Of a stretch of DNA of 64,000 bases, positions 3,919-11,026 are shown piece by piece; the first letter of the stretch is position 1, and each line of letters begins with the position of its first letter. Location: the NCBI RefSeq assembly GCF_003864295.1, contig NZ_BDQK01000013.1, forward strand, positions 868,001 through 932,000. Direction: 5' to 3'. The DNA is from Aphanothece sacrum FPU1. Lineage in GTDB: Bacteria > Cyanobacteriota > Cyanobacteriia > Cyanobacteriales > Microcystaceae. Made by a program: the position numbers and the translations under genes. The notes beneath the pieces were generated by a model. That model was given only the letters and a program-made list of their open reading frames with translations, did not search any database and was not told the origin of the DNA.

Positions 3919-3959
3919 ATGAATTATGAATTATGAATTATGAATTATGAATTATGAAT
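3919..3959 (+). repeat. Short ATGAATT heptamer array (5 copies plus 6 bp)
   Basis: Five perfect ATGAATT units and a partial sixth. The array is inverted relative to the 34-copy array at 4326-4563, so the two bracket the gene between them as an inverted pair. The stop codon of the minus-strand four-helix-bundle ORF (TAA) lies inside this array. Confidence 0.97.
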
Positions 3960-4335
3960 GGTTTTGTTTTGTTTTGCAGATAATGGTGGTAATGACGGCG
4001 ATAAGTTCTTCTGTTTCTTGGGTGAGAGAGTGAATGCGGTTTGTCGGAACAATCTCTGATTTTTCTAGCAAGCGCAACCAATATAGACTTTCCCTTGCTT
4101 CTTTTTGAGCGATACTCATTTTATGAATGAAATCAGCTTTACTTTGTCCTGACTGTGCCTCTTCTATATTAGCTCCAATGGAAGTGGCAGATCTTAAATA
4201 TTGTTTTCCTAGTATCCAACCTGCACCATCTTTTCCTTCCTGTAAAAATTGATATAATTTAATTGCTCGGAGGGCATAGTCAAAAGAACGTTCCCGAATA
4301 TTCCTTGGTTTGTCTTCTCTTCTTTCATAATTCAT
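3952..4335 (-). CDS. Four-helix-bundle protein (S23 / 23S-rRNA-intervening-sequence protein family)
   Basis: A 127-aa all-helical protein with the S23 family core: FDYALRAIKLYQFLQ, then YLRSATSIGANIEEAQSGQSKADFIHKMSIAQKEARESLYWLRLL. This is the pattern of four-helix-bundle proteins found in rRNA intervening sequences and related to the bAvd accessory protein of diversity-generating retroelements. Both gene ends come from heptamer repeats: the start codon and residues MNYE are the last unit of the 34-copy array, and the TAA stop is in the short inverted array. No Shine-Dalgarno is visible. No reverse transcriptase, template repeat or rRNA gene is nearby. The family is clear; the cellular function here is unknown. 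Confidence 0.85.
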   Translation of the reverse strand: MNYERREDKPRNIRERSFDYALRAIKLYQFLQEGKDGAGWILGKQYLRSATSIGANIEEAQSGQSKADFIHKMSIAQKEARESLYWLRLLEKSEIVPTNRIHSLTQETEELIAVITTIICKTKQNHS

Positions 4336-5601: not shown

Positions 5602-5726
5602 ATTAATAACAACAAACTATCAATAAATTGAGCTAGAATGAGACAAAGATCCTGTGTTCTTAACCAGGATACCCTAAAGCAAAATAGACGATTGACACTC
5701 CCTCGCTTTTTTAACGGCGGGGATTC

Positions 5727-6971
5727 TTAAGAGACATAAGTCCTTAAAGGGTTAGCCAAAAACCCGCTAGACACTCGCTCAAAACTGAGTCTGTGCTTAC
5801 TTTTAACTAAAATATTGGCACTGCCGTTTATATCTGCACAAACAAGATGCTTATCCTTTGTCCGATACAATCCACGTTTAATCCTTTTGCCGGAAAATTT
5901 GTATTTACCAGGATTATCGGCATTGTAAACAGGGATTTCGTCACGGTCAAAAAAACTTGCTTTAGAGGAATAAGATTCTTCTTGCTCAAAATATTCGATT
6001 CCGTATCGAGAACACATTGCTTTAAGTTTTTGTCTCAATTGCCAAAAAGGAATTTGAACAAAATTTTGGTTATTGGAACGCCCGATATTAATCTCTTGTT
6101 TAATGCCTGGGTTATAGCCAACTACCAACTTGCCAATTTGATAAATCAAACAATGGTTAATTATTATTCGAGCCGATTTATTGAGGTAATCTCGAATGGA
6201 ATCATTGCGCCATTGATTGAGTTGAGCTTGTTTGTTTGTCAACCTTTTAATACCTTGCTTATCTCCTTCAGATTGAAGTTCAGCGTTGCGCTTGTTATAC
6301 CACTGATTAATGCTTTTAAGTCTTTTTCCATCAATCAAAAATTGATGCCCGTCAGTGTCAAAGCAAGCCGCCAAATTATCTACTCCCAAGTCGATAGCAA
6401 TAGCACTATCAGAATTAACAGATGTCTCTATTTTTTCATCTTCATAAATATACTCAATCTCAAACCATCGAGCCGAGTATTTTGGATGTATTCGTACCTC
6501 CTTGATATTTTTGTTTTTCAGTCTTTCTGGGAGTTGGATTTTAACCTCACCATGTTCTTTTTTAAACTCTCTAGACATGGGAATTTCAAATATTCCATCT
6601 TTGAGTTTAATTCTAGGAATAATCAAAGGGAAATATCCCTCTTTAGGCAAGTATTTGGGCAGTTGTGGTCTTTGATCACATCTCCCTATGCTAATTGCCT
6701 CTCTCAGCCCCAAGAAAGACCTCATACTTCTATCTACTATCTTCATGGTCTGTTGAGCAATATCGGTATTAAGCAACCGATAGTTTTCATTAGACTTGCA
6801 AATATGGTAGTTAGATTCGTAGGTCAAGCGTCTTCTTTCTGTAAAGAAATACTGCCTACATTCGTACAATGCCACGTTAAAAAGATTTTTACTCAAACGA
6901 CACAAGGCAGTGAGGGCTTTAAATTCCCTTTGGCTAAGTCTTTTGAGTTGGTTTTTTTGAGTGGCGTACAT
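5727..6971 (-). CDS. tnpB: TnpB-family RNA-guided nuclease homologue, zinc-finger-less type
   Basis: A 414-aa OrfB/TnpB protein. RuvC-I is AIAIDLGVDNLAACFD (about residues 190-205, catalytic Asp in IDLG), and RuvC-III is LVCADINGSANILVK near the C-terminus. The usual RuvC-II glutamate position reads VVGYNPGIKQE (Gly where VxE is typical), and an EQEESYSSKASFFD block follows, which may supply a displaced acidic residue. The four-cysteine zinc finger normally just before RuvC-III is absent and replaced by KYKFSGKRIKRGLYR. TnpB enzymes cut DNA guided by an RNA from the element's right end; whether this subtype is active is not known from sequence. A full-length opposite-strand ORF (5847-7019) is a shadow. 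Confidence 0.9.
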   Translation of the reverse strand: MYATQKNQLKRLSQREFKALTALCRLSKNLFNVALYECRQYFFTERRRLTYESNYHICKSNENYRLLNTDIAQQTMKIVDRSMRSFLGLREAISIGRCDQRPQLPKYLPKEGYFPLIIPRIKLKDGIFEIPMSREFKKEHGEVKIQLPERLKNKNIKEVRIHPKYSARWFEIEYIYEDEKIETSVNSDSAIAIDLGVDNLAACFDTDGHQFLIDGKRLKSINQWYNKRNAELQSEGDKQGIKRLTNKQAQLNQWRNDSIRDYLNKSARIIINHCLIYQIGKLVVGYNPGIKQEINIGRSNNQNFVQIPFWQLRQKLKAMCSRYGIEYFEQEESYSSKASFFDRDEIPVYNADNPGKYKFSGKRIKRGLYRTKDKHLVCADINGSANILVKSKHRLSFERVSSGFLANPLRTYVS

Positions 6972-6981
6972 AGTCTTACTC

Positions 6982-7012
6982 GTTTCGCTATACCGCTAGT
7001 ATATAGCGAAAC
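6982..7012. repeat. Perfect 11-bp inverted repeat upstream of tnpB
   Basis: GTTTCGCTATA (6982-6992) and TATAGCGAAAC (7002-7012) form a perfect stem with a 9-nt spacer, 11 bp before the tnpB start codon. It contains TATA-like boxes and could be a promoter/operator or a left-end structural element. Its role is not determinable here. Confidence 0.7.
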
Positions 7013-7065
7013 AACTTAAATGTAAAGCCGTCCCAAAAGGACGGGGTTTCAAACCCAAATTTTCG

Positions 7066-7906: not shown

Positions 7907-8230
7907 TTAAAGATACTTTTCCAGGGTGCTGGCTAAAGTTGTTTTAGGAACTGCCCCAACCACCATATCAACTCTTTGACCCCCTTTAAAGATCATAAGA
8001 GTGGGAATGCTACGAATTCCATACTGACTGGCTGTGTTAGGATTTTCGTCAGTATTGAGTTTAACCACCTTGACTTTACCAATGTATTGTTCAGCGATTT
8101 CCTCTACTACTGGAGCTACCATACGACAAGGGCCACACCAAGGGGCCCAAAAATCTACTAATACAGGAAGTTCACTATCTAAAACCTCTTCTTTAAACTT
8201 ATCATCTGTAACCTGAAGTGTGTCTGCCAT
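7907..8230 (-). CDS. trxA: Thioredoxin (TrxA, m-type)
   Basis: A complete 107-aa thioredoxin with the redox motif WCGPC (residues 31-35) preceded by VDFWAP, and the cis-proline loop in IRSIPTL (about 71-77). It reduces disulfides of target enzymes in the cytoplasm, in cyanobacteria via ferredoxin- or NADPH-thioredoxin reductase. About 180 bp upstream, on the same strand, lies a Yfr1 small RNA gene; this neighbourhood is the conserved location of yfr1 in many cyanobacteria. The start codon is followed by [11 protein letters not shown], the usual TrxA beginning. Confidence 0.97.
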
Positions 8231-8411
8231 ACCGAGAATTCCTTTGATTGCTTACATTGCTTGAGAATACTCTAGAATTCTACCATAACGAAAACTCTGT
8301 GGATTTAACCCAAAAGAATAGATAATTTTACAAAGAATTTATGCTTTTAAGGCTAAAGTTCCTAAACCTTAGTAATCCTAGCACTCAATCTAACTTTATA
8401 TTAAGTTAGAT

Positions 8412-8481
8412 AAAGAAACCGCTCGAACAAAGCCCGAGCGGAGTGTGGTGTGAGGAGTGAACGGAAACATTCGTCTCCGCT
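8412..8481 (-). ncRNA. yfr1: Yfr1 small regulatory RNA
   Basis: On the minus strand the region reads as a 5' stem-loop (GCGGAGACGAATGTTTCCG), then the family hallmark ACTCCTCACAC at 8458-8448 in an unpaired stretch, then a terminator stem CCGCTCG/CGAGCGG (8441-8419) and a U-rich tail ending near 8412. The -10 box TACAAT (8493-8488) puts the 5' end at about 8481, giving about 70 nt. The motif, the two flanking hairpins and the position upstream of trxA match Yfr1, a cyanobacterial trans-acting sRNA known to repress porin-like (som) mRNAs in marine strains. The rest of the 8231-8677 gap holds nothing else I recognise. Confidence 0.93.
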
Positions 8482-8677: not shown

Positions 8678-11026
8678 ATGAGTGCTACTCTGGATTTTCT
8701 CTCTCAACTCAATTCTTCACAACGTCTTGCTGTAGAACATTTTTGTGGCCCTTTGTTGGTGGTAGCTGGAGCAGGTTCCGGTAAAACAAGGGCCCTAACC
8801 TACAGAATAGCTCATCTGATTAGTCATCATCAAGTTGACCCAGAATCCATTCTAGCTGTTACTTTTACCAATAAAGCAGCTAAAGAAATGAAAGAGAGAA
8901 TTGAGAAGTTATTTGCTCAAGAAATGGCTCAGAAAAAACATAATACTCGTTTTGAATTGTTGCCTGAATATGAACAAAAAAAGCTAGTTTCTCAAGTTTA
9001 TAAACAAACTACTAAAAAACTTTGGATCGGTACTTTTCATAGTCTATGTGTTCGTATTTTGCGCTACGATATTAATAAATATCAGGATGAACGGGGACGC
9101 ACTTGGACAAGAGATTTTTCTATTTTTGATGAATCTGATGTGCAAAGTTTGATTAAAACTATTGTTACTAAACAACTCAATTTAGATGATAAAAAATTTG
9201 AGCCTCGTAATGTGCGTTATGCTATTAGTAATGCTAAAAATTTAGGTCTTTCTCCTGATGATTATCTAAAAGAGAATACTCACTATAAAGGACGTATTAT
9301 TGCTGAGATTTACCAAGAATATCAAAATCAACTGGCGGCGAATAATGCTCTAGATTTTGATGATTTAATTTTGGTTCCAGTTCGTTTATTTAAACAAAAT
9401 GAATCAATTTTAGGTTATTGGCATACTCAATTTAAACATATTTTAGTAGATGAATATCAAGATACTAATCAAATTCAGTATGATTTAATTCGCTTATTAA
9501 CAACGAATGGAGAAACTGACAAAAGTCAATGGAATTGGCAAGATCGCTCTATTTTTGTGGTAGGAGATGCGGATCAATCTATTTATAGTTTTCGCATGGC
9601 AGATTTTACGATTTTATTAAATTTTCAATCTGATTTTGGGGATAGTTTACCGGATGAAGATACCCGCACAATGGTTAAACTCGAAGAAAATTATCGTTCT
9701 AGAGAAAACATTTTACAAGCAGCTAATAAGTTAATTGAAAATAATACACAACGCATTGACAAAATTCTCAAACCCACTAGAGGAGAAGGAGAACAAATCT
9801 ATTTTTATAAGGCAGATGATGAACGCATTGAATCACAATTTGTCATTGATACTATTCAACAATTAATTAATAGTAATCCTGAATTAAATTGGGGAGATTT
9901 TGCTATTCTTTATCGTATTAATGCTCAATCTCGTTCCTTTGAAGAAGGTTTAATTCAGAATAATATTCCCTATACAATTGTAGGAGGATTTAAGTTTTAT
10001 GATCGTCAAGAAATTAAAGATTCCCTGGCATATTTACGGTTAATTGTCAACCCTGTTGATACAGTTAGTTTACTAAGAATTATTAATAGTCCTCGTCGCG
10101 GAATAGGCAAAACTTCGATGGATGCTTTAATCAAAGCGTCTCAAGAATTAGAGATCCCCTTATGGGAAATTATCAGTGATGAAACCTCAGTTAATACTTT
10201 AGCAGGAAGGGCGGCAAAATCTATTAATAAATTTGCTACCATGATTAAAAAATTTCAAGAAAACTTAGAAAATTTACCTGGTGCAGAAATTTTAAATGAT
10301 GTCATGGAAGTATCAGGTTATCTAGATGAATTAAAGGCAAAAGGAACAGAAGAATCAGATAATCGTATCGCCAACATTTTTGAATTGTATAATGCAGTGA
10401 CCCAATATCAAGAAGAAAATGAAGACAAAAGCTTACAAGGATTTTTAACCAATGCTTCCTTAGCATCTGATCTTGATGGGTTAAAAGAAGGACAAGAAAA
10501 AGTATCATTAATGACCCTTCATTCGGCCAAAGGATTAGAATTTCCTGTTGTATTTCTGGTAGGATTAGAACAAGGATTATTACCTCATAATCGCAGTTTA
10601 AGTGATCCTTTATCCTTAGAAGAAGAACGACGTTTATGTTATGTGGGAATCACCAGGGCCCAAGAACAATTATTCTTAACTTGTGCCAGAGAACGCTTTG
10701 TTTGGGGGTTTAAAGAAGCGAAATTACCCTCCCAATTTTTAAGTGAATTACCTCAAGAGTTATTGAGTAGTAATATTAAATTAACTCGTTCTAAATCTCC
10801 AGGAAAAAAACCTGCTTTATCTTCTCAAAATAGTCCCGCATCTGAATTAACTTGGTCAGTAGGCGATCGCGTAATTCATCATAGTTTTGGTGAAGGAGAA
10901 ATTACTCATATTTTGGGTTCAGGAAAGAAAACTAATTTAGCTATTCAATTTCAGGGTTTGGGACGAAAAATAGTTGATCCAAAATTAGACTCTATCAGCA
11001 AAATTAAGACCAGCAAACATAGGTAA
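8678..11026 (+). CDS. pcrA: UvrD/PcrA/Rep-family superfamily I DNA helicase
   Basis: A 782-aa 3'-5' SF1A helicase for repair and replication-fork processing. Q-motif region is FLSQLNSSQRLAVEH (7-21). Walker A is VAGAGSGKTRALTYRI (29-44), with VTFTNKAAKEMKERI (about 67-81), Walker B DEYQDTN (about 262-268), GDADQSIYSFR (about 299-309), LEENYRS (about 335), MTLHSAKGLEFPVVF (about 612-626) and VGITRAQEQLFL (about 655). The C-terminal Tudor-like domain that contacts RNA polymerase in PcrA/UvrD is present (WSVGDRVIHHSFGEGEITHIL). Start ATG at 8678. PcrA is the usual cyanobacterial label; Rep/UvrD cannot be told apart strictly. Confidence 0.95.
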   Translation: MSATLDFLSQLNSSQRLAVEHFCGPLLVVAGAGSGKTRALTYRIAHLISHHQVDPESILAVTFTNKAAKEMKERIEKLFAQEMAQKKHNTRFELLPEYEQKKLVSQVYKQTTKKLWIGTFHSLCVRILRYDINKYQDERGRTWTRDFSIFDESDVQSLIKTIVTKQLNLDDKKFEPRNVRYAISNAKNLGLSPDDYLKENTHYKGRIIAEIYQEYQNQLAANNALDFDDLILVPVRLFKQNESILGYWHTQFKHILVDEYQDTNQIQYDLIRLLTTNGETDKSQWNWQDRSIFVVGDADQSIYSFRMADFTILLNFQSDFGDSLPDEDTRTMVKLEENYRSRENILQAANKLIENNTQRIDKILKPTRGEGEQIYFYKADDERIESQFVIDTIQQLINSNPELNWGDFAILYRINAQSRSFEEGLIQNNIPYTIVGGFKFYDRQEIKDSLAYLRLIVNPVDTVSLLRIINSPRRGIGKTSMDALIKASQELEIPLWEIISDETSVNTLAGRAAKSINKFATMIKKFQENLENLPGAEILNDVMEVSGYLDELKAKGTEESDNRIANIFELYNAVTQYQEENEDKSLQGFLTNASLASDLDGLKEGQEKVSLMTLHSAKGLEFPVVFLVGLEQGLLPHNRSLSDPLSLEEERRLCYVGITRAQEQLFLTCARERFVWGFKEAKLPSQFLSELPQELLSSNIKLTRSKSPGKKPALSSQNSPASELTWSVGDRVIHHSFGEGEITHILGSGKKTNLAIQFQGLGRKIVDPKLDSISKIKTSKHR

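Follow-up and report, generated by a model that had tools for sequence, protein, structure and literature searches.

A Yfr1 small RNA gene upstream of trxA in Aphanothece sacrum FPU1 and the predicted pairing of its spacer with murC leaders across Cyanobacteriia

A short minus-strand element at positions 8412-8481 of a 64-kb stretch of the Aphanothece sacrum FPU1 genome (the window; 64,000 nucleotides) raises the question whether it encodes the small regulatory RNA Yfr1 and, if so, which messages its single-stranded region might address. The first part was answered by the Rfam covariance models: the Yfr1 model RF01116 matched end-to-end at 8480-8417 on the minus strand (cmscan of the 64-kb window, 59.4 bits, E 3.1e-9; gathering cut-off 38 bits), no other Rfam family reached its own gathering score within the window, and a covariance-model search of this genome revealed no second Yfr1 over the cut-off; the runner-up match (15.7 bits) was located antisense on a Yfr2-type RNA. 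The identity proposed in the first-pass annotation is thereby confirmed: 8412-8481 is Yfr1, a known cyanobacterial small regulatory RNA, and as such an ordinary, expected orthologue with a predicted transcript of about 65-70 nt; abundant Yfr1 transcripts of 54-69 nt have been described elsewhere (PMC2190773).

Folding of the 70 nt from the predicted transcript start at 8481 to 8412 gave an 8-bp hairpin, a 19-nt single strand and a 10-bp hairpin (minimum free energy -26.6 kcal/mol; z = -3.94; 0 of 200 shuffles equally stable). The 5' hairpin GCGGAGAC-GAAT-GTTTCCGT occupies 8461-8480 and the 3' hairpin 8419-8441; between them lies the unpaired spacer (8442-8460), the predicted target-binding region, with unpaired probabilities of at least 0.90 at 18 of its 19 positions (8460-8442; the 18 for which values were listed). 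It contains the ultraconserved undecamer ACUCCUCACAC at 8448-8458 (ACTCCTCACAC at 8458-8448 on the minus strand) and an extension, CACAC (8443-8447), for which pairing with the murC leader is predicted. The placement of the motif between two minus-strand stem-loops, as proposed beforehand, is thus borne out by the fold and the unpaired probabilities. By the published definition (PMC2190773), a Yfr1 has a 5' stem-loop of 6-10 bp, then 16-20 unpaired nucleotides containing the undecamer, and finally a GC-rich 3' hairpin with a U tail behind it; the 19-nt spacer and the 8-bp 5' stem of the present RNA lie within these limits and its 3' hairpin is followed by a U tail, whereas the 3' stem, at 10 bp, exceeds the 6-9 bp given in print and the tail TTTCTTTATC is interrupted by a C. 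Of the terminator that had been claimed, the hairpin was called by the terminator scan (8441-8419), and the element is best described as an intrinsic terminator with a weak U tail. Its sequence was largely conserved among the homologues and not, as had been supposed, specific to the lineage. It is directly followed by a 12-nt inverted repeat (8388-8411) that was not observed in the relatives aligned from the family and that may act as an additional, weak terminator ahead of trxA.

Upstream, the -10 box TACAAT (8493-8488, minus strand) ends 7 nt ahead of the predicted start, as the first-pass annotation had noticed. It was kept in the window and in 12 of 12 aligned relatives of its family and recurred in 25 of 38 distinct Yfr1 sequences outside the picocyanobacteria (TANNNT in 35 of 38); a sigma-70 consensus scan that also requires a -35 box called no promoter on the minus strand.

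The 5' hairpin had likewise been regarded as lineage-specific, a view that the comparison contradicts: the stem GCGGAGAC...GTTTCCGT was common to 36 of 38 distinct non-picocyanobacterial Yfr1 (window excluded; 35 of 38 in an alternative count with the window included, one register having slid in scoring), and mainly the loop varied. The 26 distinct picocyanobacterial sequences had a different stem: at pairs 2, 5 and 7 both sides had changed, and pair 4 was unpaired in 24 of 26. The first hairpin is therefore nearly universal outside this one clade. Covariation of the 5' stem within the non-picocyanobacteria was discarded as a line of evidence, since the stem hardly varies there. The same division was evident in the spacer: 41 of 42 non-picocyanobacterial loci retained the extended motif ACTCCTCACACCACAC, as against 0 of 30 loci of family f25, taken as the picocyanobacterial family by inference from genome size, from the letters of the motif and from members without Yfr1 (72 loci, two of them repeating already counted genomes; a recount over all motif copies was unchanged). 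In two picocyanobacterial loci (L019 and L020), the strand opposite Yfr1 bore a second undecamer copy, about 30 nt away from the one in Yfr1 itself.

With respect to possible targets, this genome has 8 exact copies of the motif complement GTGTGAGGAG, as against 0 of the reversed control, namely one self site (the antisense strand of Yfr1), four Cyano-1/Yfr2-type RNAs, the murC leader, the SpoIID/LytB leader and the antisense of tuf. Cyano-1 (Yfr2-type) RNAs gave five matches over the cut-off of 41 bits and a sixth at 40.8 bits, one of the four with GTGTGAGGAG thus scoring 0.2 bits under the cut-off; Cyano-2 gave no match in this genome. The shorter 9-mer GTGTGAGGA was present at 27 genomic sites compared with 8 for the reversed pattern: one self site, five in Yfr2-type RNAs, 11 at 6-22 nt before the starts of open reading frames of at least 220 aa, and 10 elsewhere; not counted among the 11 was L161, a frame of 195 aa that also has a start and runs antisense to tuf. 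Assuming about 4,000 genes (not a count), expectations worked by hand amounted to about 4 such sites before starts if all genes had AGGA in place (Poisson P(>=11) 0.002) and to about 0.4 if AGGA were as frequent as in the open reading frames of the window (4 of 42; P(>=11) 7e-13). Judged by these expectations, the sites complementary to Yfr1 are non-randomly placed. Five of the 11 genes clearly belong to the cell envelope (two SomB iron-uptake porins, murC, SpoIID/LytB and an MlaD/MCE protein), in agreement with the earlier suggestion that complementary sites be sought near porin starts. The remainder comprised a weak beta-barrel match (inverse autotransporter) just over cut-off, a glycosyltransferase over the Pfam cut-offs and below that of HpnI, one gene each with a sub-cut-off match to DUF748 and to T2SSC, and two genes without family, so that 4 of the 11 had no family match or none over a curated cut-off. 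In 4 of the 11 (SpoIID, one SomB, L169 and L172) the frame was open upstream of the chosen start and the site could be located inside the coding sequence. A further sugar-transferase gene carried GTGTGGTGTG 24 nt ahead of its start. Among the loci inspected in 30 of the 83 genomes with a match, the SpoIID/LytB site recurred in just 8 of 30, that of the present genome being one of them, and SpoIID was accordingly rejected as a widely conserved Yfr1 target.

Directly supported here are the assignment to the Yfr1 family, the structure, the presence of just one copy over the cut-off, the conservation of the -10 box and the non-random placement of sites. To these the proposed mechanism adds a function: very probably, the orthologue acts as a short trans-acting RNA whose unpaired spacer would bind the Shine-Dalgarno regions of murC, SomB, SpoIID/LytB, MlaD and other envelope mRNAs and would thereby block their translation, while the Yfr2-type RNAs (six Cyano-1 matches of at least 40 bits, five over the cut-off) would titrate it. 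Binding, block and titration are inferred from the pairing and from published work in Nostoc and Prochlorococcus. In the study of Nostoc sp. PCC 7120 (Brenes-Alvarez et al. 2020, PMC6974561), which included E. coli reporters, Yfr1 was reported to repress murC, mraY and porin reporters via its conserved region, to bind Yfr2 and, upon depletion, to leave murC and mraY mRNA increased; in a reporter assay with Prochlorococcus MED4 components, Yfr2 relieved the Yfr1 repression of the PMM1121 leader (Lambrecht et al. 2019, PMC6778093). The murC, porin and other envelope targets and the Yfr2 partner are alike in A. sacrum and Nostoc, with the difference that the regulon of the former is a predicted one; SpoIID/LytB, MlaD and the sugar transferase are candidates of the present genome that were not encountered among the Nostoc targets in the available part of that publication. 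Regarding the presumed titrating partners, one Yfr2-type RNA (L044/L234, G000:C7:112306-112378) has GTGTGGTGTG and, unlike the other five, pairs with the extended Yfr1 spacer (computed energy -24.7 kcal/mol, with a long bulge). Furthermore, the EF-Tu coding sequence (L036, G000:C7:40737-40746) bears the Yfr1 motif in sense, so that Yfr2 could be bound by tuf mRNA in competition with Yfr1.

Both murC and porins are already published Yfr1 targets in Nostoc (PMC6974561). In the present genome, the stretch 5'-AGUGUGGUGUGUGAGGAG-3' precedes the GUG start of murC; its predicted duplex with CUCCUCACACCACACU of the spacer consists of 16 pairs, two nucleotides of the leader being bulged out, and has an energy of -26.5 kcal/mol, compared with -17.9 kcal/mol for the undecamer part alone on the same leader. 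According to the computed energies, nearly the whole Yfr1 spacer and not just the undecamer would pair with the murC leader.

The comparison was extended to the class, in which murC was found by TIGR01082 in 115 of 116 genomes; 90 leaders were taken from these 115, two were unplaceable, and the remaining 88 (80 non-picocyanobacterial, 8 picocyanobacterial) were scored against the Yfr1 spacer of the window, with 219 other leaders as controls. These controls are of mixed lineage, with picocyanobacterial loci among them, and their starts were set at the first ATG; three candidate targets are found among their lowest energies, which renders the controls conservative in that respect. The median pairing energy was -24.3 kcal/mol in the 80 non-picocyanobacterial murC leaders versus -8.1 kcal/mol in the controls; 65 of the 80 were beyond the 5% tail of the controls and 62 beyond the 1% tail, the latter resting on about two leaders. 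None of 200 scrambled spacers reached the observed median. For the undecamer part alone, the median over the same 80 leaders was -13.0 kcal/mol. In contrast to the non-picocyanobacterial leaders, those of picocyanobacteria exhibited a median of -5.5 kcal/mol, and none of the 8 was beyond the 5% quantile (hence none at 1%). Where Yfr1 and murC of the same genome were paired, 13 of 16 non-picocyanobacterial combinations were at -19.2 kcal/mol or below, versus 0 of 3 picocyanobacterial ones.

At least one strong murC leader was found in 30 of the 31 families, 17 of which were represented by a single leader; the exception was the picocyanobacterial f25. Mostly weak leaders were present in f24 (1 of 8 strong), f27 (1 of 3) and f28 (2 of 6), and these three families accounted for 13 of the 18 leaders that missed the 1% tail. 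A separate set of loci with organism names and of non-cyanobacterial loci (80 in total, 13 unscored, some of them possibly duplicating species already counted) gave the following distribution: 8 of 9 named leaders classed as non-picocyanobacterial passed the 1% tail, the leaders of a Prochlorococcus and of an uncultured Synechococcus failed it, and of the non-cyanobacterial murC leaders 0 of 56 passed the 1% tail and 9 of 56 the 5% tail. Thus, the predicted murC pairing is spread over the sampled Cyanobacteriia families and absent from the sampled picocyanobacteria. For this breadth across families, and for the picocyanobacterial absence, no report was encountered in the parts of the largely open-access Yfr1 literature that were consulted.

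Such complementarity might also reflect a Shine-Dalgarno sequence and a GT-rich leader kept for a reason other than Yfr1 binding. Indeed, the leaders are GT-rich, and 20 of the 80 non-picocyanobacterial ones were not unusual when compared with their own dinucleotide shuffles; on the other hand, in 60 of the 80 only 5 or fewer of 100 shuffles were as low (picocyanobacteria: 0 of 8), and the hexamer GTGTGG was present in 51 of 80 non-picocyanobacterial murC leaders, but in 0 of 8 picocyanobacterial leaders, 0 of 219 controls and 0 of 56 non-cyanobacterial murC leaders. A portion of the duplex is formed with the Shine-Dalgarno core, as would be the case for any RNA containing CUCCU, and the C-rich picocyanobacterial spacers still gave -17.2 to -22.4 kcal/mol on the 80 leaders; in consequence, only a share of the energy comes from the particular bases of the CACAC extension. 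Single genomes varied in the fit between spacer and leader: G177, the sole locus outside f25 with an altered extension, has a murC leader without the site (-4.2 kcal/mol), G296 keeps the extension yet has a weak leader (-12.9), and G280 reaches -18.8. The Nostoc results bear on both readings, since a UG spacer variant with a compensatory murC leader made no significant difference, so that a murC rescue was not seen, whereas the murC reporter was repressed and murC mRNA rose upon Yfr1 depletion (PMC6974561). Taken together, a cause other than Yfr1 binding is considered unlikely. In many of the murC leaders (e.g. L122, L128 and L136), the Yfr1 site is preceded by a common TGATATCGCGTG-like stretch; this is possibly a conserved promoter, in which case the site would make up much of the leader.

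The distribution of the murC site permits an evolutionary reading that is slightly favored by the authors: Yfr1 may have been an ancestral envelope regulator of the Cyanobacteriia, its 16-nt antisense spacer being kept by the pairing with murC, and the picocyanobacteria may have lost the murC site and relaxed the extension; the cell-wall role in heterocyst-formers would then be old and the targetome of Prochlorococcus derived. The Yfr1/Yfr10 system of MED4 has the undecamer and, as predicted here, the Yfr2 antagonism in common with the present one (PMC6778093); the sampled picocyanobacterial genomes differ in the spacer extension and in the letters of the 5' hairpin, and no murC leader site was found in them. 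The authors of the Nostoc study considered that Yfr1 has different functions in distant strains and that its targetome outside the heterocyst-formers would be of interest (PMC6974561), a question on which the comparative murC result bears: that 30 of the 31 sampled families include one or more members with a strong murC site points to a shared cell-wall role, testable in non-heterocystous laboratory strains. The gene itself was to be expected; the comparative target result, of moderate interest, is what is added.

The genomic position of Yfr1 suggests a further possibility, a mainly cis-acting element serving as leader or attenuator of trxA instead of a trans-acting RNA. The thioredoxin gene trxA (7907-8230, minus strand; PF00085, E 4.7e-36) is the downstream neighbor on the same strand, with Yfr1 located 186 nt upstream, and a pcrA/uvrD-type helicase gene (8678-11026, plus strand; PF00580, PF13361, PF21196) diverges on the opposite side. 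A location beside trxA and/or guaB is usual for Yfr1, although not universal (PMC2190773), and the order <-pcrA yfr1-> trxA-> has already been published for Crocosphaera watsonii (Voss et al. 2007, PMC2190773). Indeed, Yfr1 of C. watsonii WH 8501 and of the other cyanobacteria in that study resembles the present RNA in its two hairpins, undecamer and spacer length, and the Crocosphaera gene also in its pcrA/trxA neighborhood; as far as described there, nothing essential differs, and loop letters and some terminator letters vary. In addition to the proximity of trxA, which was found within the fetched flanks of 63 of 72 loci with Yfr1 (a set in which two genomes appear twice), the interrupted U tail speaks for this possibility, and the Nostoc Yfr1 terminator terminated only partly under a strong promoter (PMC6974561). 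Against a role in cis, Yfr1 was kept at the 9 of 72 loci without trxA in the flanks, a short Yfr1 RNA was detected on Northern blots in all seven freshwater species tested (Voss et al. 2007, PMC2190773), and the complementary sites are located in trans. A predominantly cis-acting element is therefore regarded as improbable, and the trans-acting RNA is retained as the preferred reading. The flank counts also show that the trxA neighborhood does not define Yfr1, contrary to the first-pass annotation: among 12 fetched relatives of the window's family, pcrA was the divergent neighbor in 11 and trxA was present in 7, and genus g3 of this family contributed four loci without trxA, the one read for genes having metK downstream.

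Within the phylum, a search of 386 genomes with stricter filters gave Yfr1 matches in 182 at E 0.01 or better, 176 of them over the cut-off. With the exception of G013, every matching genome was labelled as the own one or as belonging to the same family, order or class. No match was obtained in five listed class members (G095, G114, G165, G223 and G350), so that 181 of 186 class members match, provided that all 184 unlisted non-matching genomes fall outside the class, as the sorting implies. Loss of Yfr1 in the relative G095 was rejected as uninformative (best E 1.03; the stretch beside the remaining pcrA part reads N). The weak match outside the class (G013, E 0.0016) was treated as chance, being below the cut-off (28.5 bits) and having no motif copy inside (the nearest was 354 nt off), and of the many weak matches in G229 and G376, three inspected loci turned out as GTGTGGGG-rich inverted sequence without the motif. 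Weak matches with a 10-nt Yfr1 motif beside a hairpin (L094, L097, L098 and L105) were seen in G165, G350 and G114, three of the genomes without a Yfr1 match; they are as expected of the published Yfr10-type RNAs (PMC6778093). That the A. sacrum gene itself is such an RNA, sharing only the undecamer with Yfr1, is very improbable: Yfr10-type RNAs carry the same motif without the structure and synteny of Yfr1 (PMC6778093), whereas the present gene matches the Yfr1 model over its full length, shares the 5' stem and lies in the pcrA/trxA neighborhood of Yfr1, and a higher-scoring Yfr1 elsewhere in the genome was sought and none was found.

Elsewhere in the window, a TnpB-like IS605 OrfB gene (5727-6971, minus strand, within 5602-7065) is located between murG and an open reading frame of 256 aa. 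In four relatives (L053-L056) the matches of these two neighbors lay about 100-110 nt apart, which suggests that the OrfB gene is a lineage-specific insertion. Near murG, a protein of the 23S rRNA-intervening-sequence type (PF05635) is encoded at 3952-4335.
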